Assembly: GCF_004762035.2 (NCBI RefSeq)
Contig: NZ_SIJK02000002.1
Coordinates: 1-64,000, forward strand
Source: Candidatus Chloroploca mongolica
Lineage (GTDB): Bacteria; Chloroflexota; Chloroflexia; Chloroflexales; Chloroflexaceae
Direction: 5' to 3'
DNA length: 64,000 bases
A program made the translations under genes and the position numbers. Of this stretch, positions 1-8,253 are shown piece after piece. The stretch's first letter is position 1. Each line of letters opens with the position of its first letter. The notes under the pieces are model-generated. The model was not told the origin of the DNA, searched no databases, and saw only the letters and a program-made list of their open reading frames with translations.

Positions 1-273
1 CATGCAACGGGTTTTTGGGAGCATGGTGTCCAAAGGTAGTCTAGCACATAGGGGACGACGCTGCTGCTGCTCGGTCTGTTTGCACGAGCAGGCGATCAAC
101 GCGGCGAAGCGCGGATGGCCGTAGGGCACATCGGCGACCATGTAGCCGGCCCCACGGCACGTTGGGCACACATCGGGCGGCAGCGGTGGCGGCTCCATCT
201 GCAGGGAGGTCGTCCCGCCGATCGACCGCATCCCGACGCGCTGCCAGGGCTTCGTAGCGGTTGACGTGCTCAT
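1..273 (-). CDS. DnaC/IstB-like helicase loader, N-terminal part (runs off the left edge)
   Basis: The frame starts with ATG at 273 and stays open to base 1, so about 91 N-terminal codons are visible. Residues 33-63 carry a four-cysteine pattern (CPTC, then CSC about 25 residues later) that resembles the zinc-binding N-terminus of phage and plasmid DnaC-like loaders. The AAA+ core would lie outside the window. Its ATG overlaps the stop of the upstream initiator gene by four bases (ATGA), which implies translational coupling and one operon. In replicons of this kind the loader delivers the replicative helicase to an origin opened by the initiator. The family call rests on the cysteine motif and on position only, since no Walker motif is in view. 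Confidence 0.6.
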   Translation of the reverse strand, partial: MSTSTATKPWQRVGMRSIGGTTSLQMEPPPLPPDVCPTCRGAGYMVADVPYGHPRFAALIACSCKQTEQQQRRPLCARLPLDTMLPKTRCM

Positions 274-1916
274 ACGGCACCTCCGGTTCCGGCGCGGCGA
301 GCCTGCACGTGCGCCAGGGCCACCGCCGGGGCAAGCCCCTCCTCCAGATCCAACGCGAGGTACTGAATCTCCAGGTCGCTCGCATCCGGCGGAGCCAGCG
401 TCAGCGCCTGAGCCTTCGCATCCGCTGCCGCCTGCGCCGTGAGCAGCCCCGTCTGGGGGGCCTCAGCCTGGGGGGGATCAACGCGCCAGGTCGTCACGAT
501 CGCGCCAATGCCCTGGCCCAACGTGCGCCGCCGCGCGAAGTCGGCCTGCACCGTCGCATCGTCGAGCGCACGAAACTCGCGGGCGGCTTTGACACTGAAG
601 CCCTGGCGGATCAGATACCGCTCCGTAGCGGTCAGCCCACCCCCCTCATCCCCCGCCTGGGTGCCGGTCGCTGCGGGTGGTGGTGTGGGATCTTCATGGA
701 TCTGATTCTCTCTGATCTCATTATAAGGGGCCTTCTTTTGCCGCATCAGGACGCCCTCCGTGCGCCCACCATGCGATCCTGGCGTCGCATCATGCGACTC
801 TGGCGTCGCATCATACGACCCCAGGATCGCATCATGCGACTCTGACGTCGCATCATACGACCCCAGGATCGCATCATGCGACTCTGGCGTCGCATCGGCC
901 CCCTGACCAGTCACCGACTGCGACTCTACGGTCGCATCGTACGACTCTACGGTCGCATCGTACGACCCCAAGATCGCCTCATGCGACTCTGGCGTCGCAT
1001 CATCCGACCCCAGGATCGCCTCATGCGACTCTGGCGTCGCATCGACCCCTTGGCCGGGCAGCGACCGCGATCCTACCGTCGCCTCATGCGACTCTGGTGT
1101 CGCATCGGCCCCCTGACCGACCAGCGGGAGCGCTCCGATCATCACACCTTCCGACCCTGCGGTTGGAGGGTGATCGCCTCGCTGCGGCACCAGCGCGGCA
1201 TCAGATGGGGCACGTGAGACCAACACCGCCTGCTGAGTTGATCGCGAACGTGTCCCATGCGACTCTGGCGTCGCATCAGGTGCGGCGTTGGAGGTCAATA
1301 CCGCATCGTGATGCGCACCTGGGCGTGCGCCATGCGACGCTGGGGTCGCATCAGCCGCCGCGAGGCTGGTCTGTTCCGCATCGTAATGCGCTCCTGGGCG
1401 TGCGCCATGCGACGCTGAGGTCGCATCGCCGGGGAGCGGTGGCATCAGGTTGAGCAGCGCCTGCACCTCGGCCAGGGTCGCTTTGCCCGAGTTGAGCAGC
1501 GTGCGTAGCTCGCTCAGAACCGCCGTGTCGGTCGCGCTACGGGCATGGGTGCGCAAATGGTAGCGGCGTGTCGTGTCACCCCGGCGCGCCCAGATCAGCC
1601 ACCCTGCCTGCTCCAACTCCGTCAGCCAGCGCTCGATACTCCGGCGGGTCGCCGGCTGCCAGGTCGCCTCCTTCGTTGCGCTGCTCGGCCCCAGCGTCCC
1701 CATCAACGTCTGCAACCGCTCCATCACCGGCGGCTCGTGCAGAAACCAGAGCCGGTGCAGCACACACCAAAGCCGAAACGCCGGGTGGCTCACCTGGCGA
1801 TCAATGATCAAGACATGCGAAGCCGGGACGAAGAGCTCGTCACCGCCGAGCCGGGGGAACCCCGGTGATCCATCGTTCGCGCCGTTCTGTGGGCGCGGAT
1901 CAGCAGAGACTGTCAT
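270..1916 (-). CDS. Replication-initiator-like winged-helix protein with tandem peptide repeats
   Basis: A 548-residue protein. Residues about 25-125 look like a winged-helix DNA-binding domain of the kind found in plasmid and phage initiators: they open with an LIIDRQVSHPAFRLW stretch and include a predicted recognition helix near RRSIERWLTELEQAGW. The middle (about 165-395) is low-complexity and made of tandem copies of a 14-residue unit resembling DATPESHDAILGSY. The C-terminal 150 residues hold a second helical region (ATERYLIRQGFSVKAAREF) similar to the end of DnaD-like or phage initiator proteins. The next gene is a helicase loader, overlapping by ATGA. Initiator, repeats within the gene and then loader match the logic of lambda O-ori-P. 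I infer a replication module of a plasmid, phage or integrative element; the exact family is not established. Confidence 0.6.
   Translation of the reverse strand: MTVSADPRPQNGANDGSPGFPRLGGDELFVPASHVLIIDRQVSHPAFRLWCVLHRLWFLHEPPVMERLQTLMGTLGPSSATKEATWQPATRRSIERWLTELEQAGWLIWARRGDTTRRYHLRTHARSATDTAVLSELRTLLNSGKATLAEVQALLNLMPPLPGDATSASHGARPGAHYDAEQTSLAAADATPASHGARPGAHHDAVLTSNAAPDATPESHGTRSRSTQQAVLVSRAPSDAALVPQRGDHPPTAGSEGVMIGALPLVGQGADATPESHEATVGSRSLPGQGVDATPESHEAILGSDDATPESHEAILGSYDATVESYDATVESQSVTGQGADATPESHDAILGSYDATSESHDAILGSYDATPESHDATPGSHGGRTEGVLMRQKKAPYNEIRENQIHEDPTPPPAATGTQAGDEGGGLTATERYLIRQGFSVKAAREFRALDDATVQADFARRRTLGQGIGAIVTTWRVDPPQAEAPQTGLLTAQAAADAKAQALTLAPPDASDLEIQYLALDLEEGLAPAVALAHVQARRAGTGGAV
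792..1426. repeat. Iteron-like palindromic repeats inside the initiator gene
   Basis: Nine perfect copies of ATGCGAC-N6-GTCGCAT start at 792, 834, 876, 981, 1023, 1086, 1257, 1332 and 1407. Several are exactly 42 bp apart, four helical turns, within a 42-bp tandem unit that encodes the repeated peptide. The spacers vary (TCTGGC, TCTGAC, GCTGGG and others) while the 7-bp arms are constant, which suggests selection on the DNA arms. They may form the replication origin. Confidence 0.65.
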
Positions 1917-2790: not shown

Positions 2791-3246
2791 TCAGAGCACA
2801 ATATCCTGCCAGCGCTGGGCAGGCACAATGCGGTTGAGATGGGCAACATTGGTGGTGGCGACCACCAGCGTATCGCCTGCGACAGAGGTAAGCAACGCCT
2901 GCGCCGCCAGAATAACATCAGCATCGATAGCACGCACAGCGGCTGTCGGCAGACCTTGGCGGCGAAGCTCGGCCCAGAGTTCAGCTGCACGCCGCATCGC
3001 CGCCGTCGTCAAGGGCACATAGTCTAGCGTGCGGCCCGCCGTATCGAGGCGCCGCAGACCTTGCTGCTTGCCAGCACGCAGCAACTCCCGGCGCAATTCG
3101 TAATCGGCGATCTCCGGCACTACGACGCGTGCGCCACTAGCCAGCATCCTGCGGAGCCAGGCAGTGCAAGCCACCACGTCCGGAGTCTGGTTCGGGTTGG
3201 TGATGATCCCCAGTGGCCCGGTATCCAACACGATCACGCTGGTCAC
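2791..3246 (-). CDS. PIN-domain ribonuclease, VapC-like toxin
   Basis: A 151-residue protein with a PIN-domain layout: an N-terminal strand with acidic residue (VIVLDTGPLG, D8), an internal glutamate (PEIADYELRR), and a C-terminal acidic pair (AIDADVILAAQAL, then ATTNVAHL). PIN proteins of this type are metal-dependent RNases that act as toxins in type II toxin-antitoxin pairs. The GTG start at 3246 is read in a TAGTG overlap with the upstream antitoxin gene, which couples the two. The length is usual for VapC-like toxins. The RNA target cannot be predicted. I am sure of the PIN fold and fairly sure of the toxin role, because of the paired small upstream gene. Confidence 0.8.
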   Translation of the reverse strand: MTSVIVLDTGPLGIITNPNQTPDVVACTAWLRRMLASGARVVVPEIADYELRRELLRAGKQQGLRRLDTAGRTLDYVPLTTAAMRRAAELWAELRRQGLPTAAVRAIDADVILAAQALLTSVAGDTLVVATTNVAHLNRIVPAQRWQDIVL

Positions 3247-3965: not shown

Positions 3966-4225
3966 CAATAAAAACGTAGAGCATAGAACGCAGAACATAA
4001 TCATTGCGATGGCCGCGATAGAATAGATCCTCCAGGTAGCGTGTGCCACCATGCTCCCTTGACCTTCCTTCCTTGGGGGGTTCAGAAGGTGATCACAATG
4101 AGAATCACCCTTGCTGAGCCACCGATGGTTGCGAATCGCTCACGCAAAATACAGGGTTTACGGGCTGACAGATGGCTTTTGCATGTGTTACGCTTCGCGT
4201 AGCTCAATACAAACGGAGGTGTGCC

Positions 4226-7200
4226 ATGCGTCGCTCCGCTGTCTGCTCTGCCATGCTGCTGCTCGTCTTGGTGCTAATCACGACGACGCTGATGAGCGTG
4301 CCCCAGGCTGCGGCCGCGCCGGACGAAGCCCCGGCGGCGGCGACGCTCCAGGCTGTCAGTTATGTTCAAGTTGCGGCTGGTGGAACTCATACCTGCGGCT
4401 TGAGCAGCGACGGTACGGTCTACTGCTGGGGCTCAAACTTGTACGGCCAGCTTGGTGACGGCACGACGACCAAGCAGCTGATACCGGTCGCAGTGGGTAG
4501 CTTGAGCGGCGTCATTGCGATTGCAGCGGGCTACTATCACACCTGTGCGCTGCTGGATGATGGAAGCGTGCGCTGTTGGGGCTGGAACCAACATGGACAA
4601 CTTGGCGATGGGACGACAACTGATCGACTGACACCAGTGGTCGTGGGTGGACTGCTCAATACAGTTACGCTTACGGCAGGCAACGCTTACACTTGTGCTC
4701 TGCTGACTGATGGCAGCGCTCGCTGCTGGGGCGCGAACTGGCAAGGTCAACTCGGTGATGGTAGCACGACGACCCGATTAACGCCGGTCGTGGTGAGCGG
4801 GCTGAGCGATGCACGTGCCATTGCGGCGGGCTACACCCACACCTGTGCACTGCTGAACAATGGCACGGCCCGTTGTTGGGGTGCAAACGAGAACGGTCAA
4901 CTTGGCGATGGTACGGCCATCAGGCGGTTGACGCCAGTCACGGTGAGTGGGTTAAGCAGTGCTATTGCGCTCGCCGTAGGTGGTGCTCATACCTGTGCGC
5001 TGCTGAACAACAATACAGTCCGCTGTTGGGGCAATAACGTGAACGGCCAACACCCGTCGTTGTGTATGGACTGAGCGGTGCGGTCGCGATCACCGCTGGT
5101 GCCGCGCACACCTGCGCCTTAATGAGCAATGGTACGGCCCGTTGCTGGGGGGCAAACGGGGAAGGGCAGCTTGGTGATAGTACTACTACTTATAGACGAA
5201 CACCGGTGGTAGTCAACGGGCTATCTGGTGCAGCCGCCCTTACGGCAGGTCGCTTGCATACCTGTGCATTGCTAGATAACGGCAGTGCCAATTGCTGGGG
5301 TCAGAATTACTACGGCCAACTTGGCGATGGCACAATGACCAACCGCCTCACTCCGGTGACCGTAAGTGGGCTGAGTGGTGTAGTTACCCTCGTAGCAGGC
5401 GATGATCATACGTGTGCATTGCTTGCCGACAGGGGTGCCCGCTGTTGGGGGAGTAACTATCACGGTCAGCTTGGTGATGGCACAACAACCGATTGGCTCA
5501 CACCGACGACAGTGAGTAGCTTGAGTGGCGTGGCTGCCCTTACCGCTCGTTCACATACTTGCGCCGTCCTGGACGATGGGAGCGCCCGTTGTTGGGGCAA
5601 TAACAACTTTGGTCAGATTGGCGACGGCACGGCTGGCTTTAGCTCCGTTCCGGTTGCTGTGGCGGAGCCTGTTGGGGATGGTGGTTCAACCTGCGCCCGC
5701 TTCGTCAGCGATGGCAACTACCCCGACGGCACGGTGGTCAATCCGGGGCAGGTCTTTGAGAAGCGTTGGCGGCTCCTGAATTGTGGCCCGGCGAGTTGGA
5801 ACGGCTACCAGGCCGAGCGCATCAGCGGCGACTATGGCCCAGCGACCTTCCCGGTCTCCGGCGCGGCCGGTGCGACGATTGATGTCTCAGCGACGTTCAC
5901 CGCACCGCTAACCCTGGGAACCTACCGTGCAACCTATAAGCTGCGGGGGCCACAGGGCCTCTTTGGCGATGCCTTCTGGGTTGAGGTGAGGGTGCGCCCT
6001 GGTCCCCTCCCGAATGCCACGGTGAGTGGGCGGGTCACCGCCGCTGATCGCGGTCTTGGCGGCGTGTTGATTACGGCATTCGGTTCACGGTTTGCCTTCA
6101 CGCTGAGTGCGGCTGATGGCAGCTATCGTTTTGCCGACATGCCAGCAGGCAACTATCAACTCACTGCGATGCGCCTGGGCTATGCTTTCGGCGCACCGAA
6201 GCTGGTGACCCTGCCGCCAGATGCGCAGGAACTTGATTTCGTGGGCCAAGCGATCACACCACCACCCTCACGGAAGATTGCCATTATGGTGCATGGTTGG
6301 CAAGGCTTCGAGACTGATCGCTCCAAGTACGATTGTCAGATCGAAAAGTTTGTCGGGCCATACCAGCGTGATCCGAGCGGCGAAAAAGCCGACGTGCCGG
6401 GCTGGGATCTGGTTGGACAGCAGCTCACCAAACTTGGCTATGAGGTCTACCTAGCAAACTGGACGACCAGTTTCTGGTACACGACCACCGCCGAAGACGC
6501 GGCGCGTGATTGCCTCGCGCCCCAAATTGCCTCAGTGGTCGGTGATGATAGTGACGGCAAAGTGTTGCTCGTCGCCCACTCGATGGGTGGATTGGTCAGT
6601 CGTGCCTACATCGAAAATGCCGATCGCTCCCAGCACCAGCCAGATGTCGAGGCGCTGATCACGCTGGGCACACCCCACGTAGGCGTCAATCTAAATACGC
6701 TGATCAAAATCGTTGGAATCTTGAACCCGAATACCCAACTTGCGACGGTTGCCATTTGTGTGGCAAATCCCGGCTTATGCCAGCTTGGCAGTGATGCGAT
6801 GTTGCTCTTTAACATCGCGCATACACCACGACATGATGTACCATACCTGTTTATGGGAGGATCGGGTGGCCCGGATTGGCTGGGATTTGTGAACTTTACA
6901 GAGGGACGGAACGACGGCATTGCTGGCTTTCGCAGCGCGACCGGCTACCAATATCAATATGCTTCCAGTATACCCTTCACCGGACGCCCGCTACACGATG
7001 ATTATCTGCTTGTTCAAGGTACCAATATTGTGCGCCGCTATAGCGATTCGTCTCATGGGGGCATTCCTTTCGTCAGTAAGCCGTGGTACGCTGATGATGT
7101 CAAGGTTAACGAGTGTGTCGCTTCCTATCTCGGCCATCGCTCATCCTTAGCCTGCAGCACCATGCGCGAACCCGTACTAAACGCAATGCCAGCCCAGGCG

Positions 7201-8253
7201 CCGCAACAAGCCATTGCGTTCACGCCCACGCAGTTTGGTACGCTGCGCAGCGGTGAGATCATCACGGCTACGCTTGACCTTGAGGGGACTGAAGCCATGG
7301 TGCTGCTGTCTGCTAGCGATGGACAGCTCAGCTTGACATTGACCGCGCCGGATGGCACGCTGCTCACGCCAACCAACGCCGTACAGATTGTGCCGGGTGC
7401 CCAATACAGCGAGCCGACCACGACTGGTGATCCACCGATCGTCAGTTACCGGCTGCCCAACCCACCTGCCGGGCGTTGGGTGGCAACCATTGCCGCCACC
7501 GACGTGATCAGCGAAACCGCCTACGCACTCGTTGCTGCCCTGCAATCAGCTTTGACGTTGGAAGTGGAACGACCATCATCGGTCGGGGTAGGGCAGTCGT
7601 TCATCATCCAGGCGACCCTGCGTGACGGCACGACGCCGGTGGATGGAGCGACCGTGAGCGTGACTCTGCCCACCACACAAGCGACGCACGTGGTAACGCT
7701 CACCCGCACGGCACCGGGGCTTTACAGTGGTCAGTTGACCGCCCCGGCAGAAGCTGGCCCGCACCTGTTCACGGTGACTGCGACCGGCAGCACCACGACG
7801 CCCTTCGCCCGCCAATTCGACGATCTGATTACCGTGCAGGCCAGTGGCGTGCAACGCCGCGGCGCAGCGATAGTGACCCCGGTTGACCGTGATGGCAATG
7901 GGCGCTACGAAGCGCTTGAGCTAACCGTGCCATACACGGCAGCGATCGCTGGCGACTACGCCGGCCTAGCAACGCTTCAGGATGCCAGTGGGCGAGTGAT
8001 CGCCCTCGCCCGTACGCAGGTGACCTGGGCAGTTGGAGATCATACCCTCAGGTTTAGCTTTGTGGGTGGTGAGATTCTTGCTAGTGGCGTGAATGGGCCG
8101 TATCGCGTGGTAGCACAGATCGTCAAGACAGAGGGGGCGCAGTTGATGGTAGATGAGCAGCCCTTGGTGGACGGGTTGAATTACCAGGCCAACGACTTTG
8201 AGGGCGCGTCTCCGATCCAGCGGGTTTATTTACCGTTCGTTCGGCGCTCCTGA
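4226..8253 (+). pseudogene. Secreted RCC1-repeat / NBR1-like / lipase protein, broken by an internal deletion
   Basis: One gene read in two frames. The first part (4226-5074) starts at ATG 4226 with a GGAGGT site. It has a signal peptide and five RCC1-type repeats with the signature HTCALL..G..RCWG..GQLGDGT. After codon NGQ near 5050 about 31 bp are missing compared with neighbouring repeats, so the frame shifts and stops at 5074. The second frame (usable start 5062) continues with four more repeats, an NBR1-like Ig domain, a carboxypeptidase-regulatory-like beta domain, an alpha/beta hydrolase (MVHGWQG and the nucleophile motif AHSMGG with Ser near residue 507 of that frame), Ig-like segments, and a C-terminal VYLPFVRR. 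Intact, it would be a large extracellular lipase or esterase on a beta-propeller. The downstream half lacks a signal peptide, so export is probably lost unless frameshifting or sequencing error is involved. Confidence 0.75.

Follow-up and report, generated by a model that had tools for sequence, protein, structure and literature searches.

Why should a single gene of Candidatus Chloroploca mongolica contain the same palindrome, ATGCGAC-N6-GTCGCAT, nine times over within its coding sequence? The gene lies at the end of contig C83, the first 64 kb of which (here termed the window) constitute the whole stretch analysed, and the original prediction was of a layout like the O-ori-P segment of phage lambda, with an initiator gene carrying its own origin and followed by a helicase loader. 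We consider it very probable that these repeats serve as the iterons of a replication origin which lies within the coding sequence of the initiator that would bind them and start replication there. Judged from its sequence, the arrangement appears to be that of an origin inside an initiator gene on a mobile element of Chloroflexales, which are green filamentous bacteria.

The repeat array and the gene that contains it

Exactly nine perfect copies of the palindrome are present in the window (Table 1), all between positions 792 and 1426 as originally predicted, and a genome-wide search found that these are also the only perfect copies in the 6.3-Mb genome, the other contigs containing none. When up to three mismatches to the palindrome are allowed there are 17 matches in the window, 15 of them inside the array, compared with an expectation of 5.1 ± 2.2, and none of 100 shuffles gave as many as 17. 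Three or more palindromes with the same arm occur in none of the 123 further ORFs examined in the window and at neighbouring loci.

Table 1. Features of the initiator-like gene, its repeat array and the adjacent contig end (window coordinates)
Feature	Position	Strand	Basis
Multicopy insertion sequence end; interrupts the loader gene, contig terminates here	1..53		Repeat copies in genomes
DnaC-like helicase-loader gene, 5′ part, about 73 codons, ATGA overlap with initiator	54..273	-	98 % DNA identity to C. asiatica
Initiator-like gene, 548 aa: DNA-binding-type N-terminal domain, repeat-coded linker, C-terminal domain	270..1916	-	ORF; homologues in Chloroploca, Viridilinea, Oscillochloris
C-terminal domain, ERYLIRQGF to stop; presumed role in helicase or loader recruitment	273..623	-	Homologue comparison
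A+T-rich box, presumed unwinding element; codes for PYNEIRENQIHED with GAGATC-like repeats	686..725	-	A+T maximum of gene
Iteron array (putative), 21-bp unit, about 17 dyads of the form NCGAY-N6-RTCGN; encoded heptapeptides DATPESH, DAILGSY and variants	771..1426		Pattern match
Perfect palindrome 1	792..811		Pattern match
Perfect palindrome 2	834..853		Pattern match
Perfect palindrome 3	876..895		Pattern match
Perfect palindrome 4	981..1000		Pattern match
Perfect palindrome 5	1023..1042		Pattern match
Perfect palindrome 6	1086..1105		Pattern match
Perfect palindrome 7	1257..1276		Pattern match
Perfect palindrome 8	1332..1351		Pattern match
Perfect palindrome 9	1407..1426		Pattern match
N-terminal domain, residues 1-158, HTH_36-like	1443..1916	-	Sequence comparison; hhalign

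The start-to-start distances between the nine perfect sites are 42, 42, 105, 42, 63, 171, 75 and 75 bp. The spacing of exactly 42 bp that first drew attention is thus seen three times, although the true unit of the array is 21 bp long, equal to seven codons and to two helical turns, and the 42-bp steps arise because alternate 21-bp units are imperfect. A relaxed core, NCGAY-N6-RTCGN, occurs 17 times in the gene, mostly at intervals of 21 bp and otherwise of 42, 54, 63 or 75 bp; the same core is found 23 and 22 times in the genes of two sister species, and nine times in each of three more distant relatives. The impression that the arms are constant and the spacers variable was partly an artefact of choosing the perfect copies, since the imperfect units differ in their arms (for example ATACGAC, ATCCGAC and ATCGCCT) and the spacer TCTGGC is identical in five of the nine perfect palindromes. 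What is fixed across the units is CGA...TCG together with the wobble bases of the arms.

The repeat cluster occupies a central position between the N- and C-terminal domains of the initiator-like gene. The N-terminal domain is 98-99 % identical to those of the sister species and about 67-75 % identical to those of other genera, and its matches to the HTH_36 family (PF13730) fall short of the cut-off, with E-values of 0.055 for the window protein and 0.0046 in the Pfam search with its relatives; a remote homologue, L111, is above the cut-off in the PF13730 search. The hhalign probability is 98.3 % to L111, and when the N-terminal domain was aligned with HTH_36 initiators as a set, L111 among them, it was 97.4 %. 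A Foldseek comparison of the domain with the PDB gave no match below E = 0.79, and nothing significant was found in a profile search of the PDB. The domain is most likely a divergent HTH_36 domain; the winged helix of the original prediction finds weak support in the HTH_36 similarity and no confirmation in the AlphaFold prediction, which is a poor model (mean pLDDT 58.8).

Constraint on the DNA and on the peptide

A repeat within a gene may matter as protein, and it could be argued that a linker of DATPESH heptapeptides simply grew by slippage, with the palindrome following incidentally from the codons chosen. In the window the 13 sites that were listed do share one frame, and the linkers of sister species are 56-113 aa apart in length, as is typical of tandem duplication; since all sites share a frame in the window's own lineage, repeated duplication of one unit does explain part of their similarity. 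However, within the same units the wobble bases of the arms are fixed while those of the spacers are free. The arm serine codon is TCG in 74 of 77 distinct heptads, whereas in the conserved domains of these genes TCG makes up 15 % of the serine codons. For the codon at the second arm position, 70 of the 77 units have G as third base although the residue encoded may be alanine, proline, threonine or serine. By contrast, the third bases of the spacer threonine codons are 18 C, 18 G, 12 A and 7 T (Fisher p = 1.6e-12 against the arm position, a value that is indicative because units from related genes are not fully independent). Arm and spacer wobble positions have one common duplication history, and shared ancestry alone therefore cannot explain the contrast. 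The comparison of synonymous with arm substitutions among homologues, suggested alongside the original prediction, thus comes out in its favour: arm wobble bases stay fixed and spacer wobble bases drift.

Synonymous resampling, in which the protein was held fixed and the genes' own codon usage was applied, gave on average 0.08, 0.14 and 0.07 perfect sites in three species for which the observed numbers are 9, 15 and 10. These numbers were never reached in 1000 trials, and codon shuffling within the linker likewise never yields them. In L111 and its paralogue L164, GAY-N6-RTC dyads are retained at steps of mostly 18 to 21 bp, and because this core is read in a different frame the repeat peptides are DTNVKS, DSGVIID and DTIVQS as opposed to DATPESH in the window's lineage. 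One dyad among the copies of these two genes is GCGAC-N6-GTCGC, which corresponds to the inner five bases of each Chloroploca arm. Homologues that keep the peptide and lose the palindrome were not seen; the opposite was, with the dyad kept and the peptide changed. These comparisons indicate that the DNA repeat is conserved and the encoded peptide is not. With the synonymous nulls lying far below the observed counts, the dyad being read in another frame in homologues, and several frames being used within single genes elsewhere (see below), we regard it as very unlikely that the repeats matter as protein.

A role as hairpins, formed either in the mRNA or in DNA when it is single-stranded, is also conceivable for the palindromes, as their 7-bp arms can pair around the 6-nt centre. 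However, the outer arm positions are left unpaired without compensation, pair 3-18 being Watson-Crick in 17 of 42 distinct Oscillochloris-type units. The test for arm-to-arm covariation gave p = 0.66 in Chloroploca and p = 0.017 in the Oscillochloris group, where the signal probably reflects residue choice because it is absent when only glycine codons are compared; base-pair covariation between the arms is therefore not convincing. Hairpin function is extremely unlikely, and its RNA form was rejected since there are no compensatory changes.

The A+T-rich box and the neighbouring genes

Directly 3′ of the array lies a box of 62 % A+T, a modest value that is a point against its being an unwinding element, in a gene that has 33 % A+T as a whole. 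Six related array-bearing genes, counting that of the window, all have their 40-nt A+T maximum at this place, and in every one it starts at, or only a few bases from, the same PY[NS]E codons. Among 18 independent array-bearing genes the A+T maximum is at the 3′ end of the array in 14, where 2.2 would be expected, and one gene has it on the 5′ side. For this count the 3′ side was scored from -30 to +90 nt relative to the 3′ end of the array, the array ends were placed manually from the detected copies, and gene L029 was scored on its compact run of repeats, without which the count is 13. The copies in the four genes that fail the test are mostly scattered, and these may not be true arrays. The order of elements is therefore DNA-binding domain, iterons, A+T box and C-terminal domain, followed by the DnaC-like loader.

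By analogy with phage lambda and plasmid pSK41 (PMC5043065, PMC5703833), the N-terminal domain, probably as a dimer, would bind each CGAY-N6-RTCG dyad. A 21-bp repeat is the shortest step that keeps the reading frame (seven codons) as well as making two helical turns, and dimers so bound would thus align on one face of the helix. Wrapping or bending of the DNA by these dimers would then open the A+T-rich box just 3′ of the array, at which the C-terminal domain and the translationally coupled DnaC-like ATPase would load the host helicase. The peptide encoded by the array would be a mere flexible linker, and for that reason free in both sequence and length.

The genes further downstream in the relatives encode an actin-like protein and an FtsK-like ATPase, an order that is conserved, and together with the loader they give the module the look of a mobile-element backbone. 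The actin-like gene raises the alternative that the array does another job for the same element, either as the partition centromere for this protein or as an operator for autorepression, and repeat arrays are also typical of centromeres. We think this unlikely, given that the array sits between the two initiator domains, that the A+T maximum consistently follows it on the 3′ side, and that array-bearing initiators of other families show the same placement.

The loader gene was originally recognized as DnaC-like and as overlapping the initiator through ATGA. The overlap is confirmed, and the relatives have intact loaders, whereas the window holds only a fragment of about 73 codons, which alone has no Pfam match. 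The C. asiatica loader matches IstB/DnaA AAA+ proteins (IstB_IS21, E = 5.9e-21), and that of a further relative, L051, matches the DnaC-like loaders of phrog_50 (E = 7e-55), while the Pfam search with relatives gave IstB_IS21 at E = 1.7e-21; by these matches the second gene in the relatives is a DnaC/DnaI-type AAA+ loader. Bases 1-53 of the window recur elsewhere in this genome, at several sites, and also in two sister genomes, and the match stops at 53-55. Since this insertion sequence cuts the loader at about codon 73, the window's copy of the replicon module is probably defective, although the contig terminates inside the insertion-sequence end and an assembly join is therefore possible. 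An ORF fragment upstream of the C. asiatica initiator (L035:3-584) had been read by eye as a serine recombinase; it has no Pfam match and the assignment was dropped. Elsewhere in the window, an ORF at 2791-3246 encodes a PIN-domain protein (E = 1.2e-5), possibly the toxin of a toxin-antitoxin pair, and positions 4172-8253 encode an RCC1-repeat protein (E = 6e-57 for the first part), where overlapping frames at 4172-5074 and 5062-8253 suggest a frameshift.

Homologues of the initiator are found in Candidatus Chloroploca asiatica, Chloroploca sp. Khr17, Candidatus Viridilinea, an uncultured Oscillochloris and one further Chloroflexi bin. In a sample of 400 genomes from the phylum the initiator was confined to the window's own family; another family of the same order has L161, a copy of the L051 type, and the more remote L111. 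Searches of plasmid, phage and viral-contig records with the initiator and its array gave no match. A 316-aa homologue in Viridilinea, whose initiator frame is open, is devoid of array and A+T box alike, and the array is thus not always kept; because the loader frame that accompanies it diverges before the end of the ATPase domain, this may be a dead copy.

Known in-gene origins and the HTH_36 initiators of the phylum

In lambda, each iteron is an inverted repeat of 19 bp to which a dimer of O binds, and a 40-bp A+T-rich region follows the iterons (PMC5043065). The ori within gene O has the same order as that described here, namely N-terminal domain, inverted-repeat iterons, A+T-rich region, C-terminal domain and loader gene, although lambda has four iterons and Chloroploca about 17-23. 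Neither the window protein nor its relatives have a Pfam match to Phage_rep_O, the lambda O family, and the 'O-like' phrog_391 gave a weak match to L051 only (E = 0.01). The loaders also differ in type, the lambda P protein being unrelated to the DnaC/IstB-type AAA+ ATPases of the Chloroploca relatives. The proposed O-ori-P-like layout is thus supported, by the 3′ A+T box, the silent-site constraint, the homologues that use another frame and the intact loaders of the relatives, as a likeness of layout.

Closer comparators than lambda are the staphylococcal plasmids pPR9 and pSK41, and pPR9 in particular is the nearest described relative in design. The pSK41 Rep, a RepA_N protein, has four Rep boxes centrally within rep, bound by an N-terminal winged HTH, and the ori-coded centre of the protein is a dispensable linker; pPR9 encodes a pSK41-type Rep with an HTH_36 (pfam13730) N-terminus (PMC5703833). 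Central placement of the sites within the initiator gene is common to these plasmids and to the Chloroploca gene, for which binding is predicted. The Chloroploca gene differs in having no Pfam match to RepA_N (up to E = 1 for the window protein and 0.1 for the relatives), a C-terminal domain that is unrelated by the tools used, many more sites and a loader gene that follows. In iteron plasmids the iterons are placed outside the rep gene, whereas the Chloroploca sites are dyads inside it. P1, R6K, RK2 and pSC101 share with it a helix-phased array of initiator sites beside an A+T-rich region, with iterons that are mostly direct repeats bound by monomers (PMC5043065). The locus would accordingly be described as an origin inside an initiator gene, and belongs, as far as its sequence can tell, to neither the lambda O nor the RepA_N family.

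There are signs that an in-gene array is a common design in the phylum. Among 70 non-redundant ORFs, drawn from an HTH_36 (PF13730) survey of the phylum and from genes related to the window initiator, 22 have a repeat cluster above a synonymous-shuffle null, which comprised four shuffles per gene, so that weak cases are uncertain. Many of the arrays whose copies were listed use two or three frames or both orientations: L061 encodes both NPER and QTLNA from the same repeat DNA, L070 encodes DTSV and ATPVS from GCGACACCAGTGTCG, the repeat of L141 is likewise read in two or three frames, and L066, L062 and L148 are three-frame arrays.

Several of these genes have features of their own. Two initiators of one genome, G032 (L029:1740-1922 and L032:1760-1917), contain the palindromes ACGATCTACAGATCGT and CACGATCATTTGATCGTC at 18-bp steps, encoding DDLQIV and DDQMIV, and their N-terminal domains have a weak LexA-like match. 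The HTH_36 initiator at L018:1201-2517 has in-gene palindromes of the form CGACAGCAGTGTCG, one copy of which has an inverted centre; it ends in DnaA domain I (DnaA_N, E = 4.7e-9), and thus seems to carry the helicase-contacting domain of DnaA, and it is followed by an apparent ParA gene. L063, L076 and L144, from different genomes, share an in-gene direct-repeat core close to GGTGACAT that is read in different frames.

A broader proposal, for which we would put the chances at about even, is that Chloroflexota hold a large unrecognized class of self-contained replicons, in which each HTH_36-type initiator gene contains its origin, made up of iterons read in any frame and an A+T box after them, so that the specificity domain would move together with its binding sites as a cassette. 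The Chloroploca genes have 17 to 23 sites, 9 to 15 of them perfect, a number that on this view changes quickly from one sister species to the next through tandem duplication and that may tune copy number. What the case adds is its large number of sites, an array size that differs quickly among sister species, sites that are independent of frame, and the sign of wide occurrence in the phylum.

A limited literature search found no paper on replication origins of Chloroflexales mobile elements, for which a probable origin and initiator can now be proposed. The locus also offers a clean case in which one stretch of DNA is both the code for a protein linker and an array of predicted binding sites, and in which, as a consequence of this double role, constraint falls on silent positions and leaves the coding ones free. 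The combination of in-gene array and A+T box could be used to find origins in other elements from sequence alone, and since sister species differ in array size, they allow a direct test of whether copy number depends on how many sites there are.
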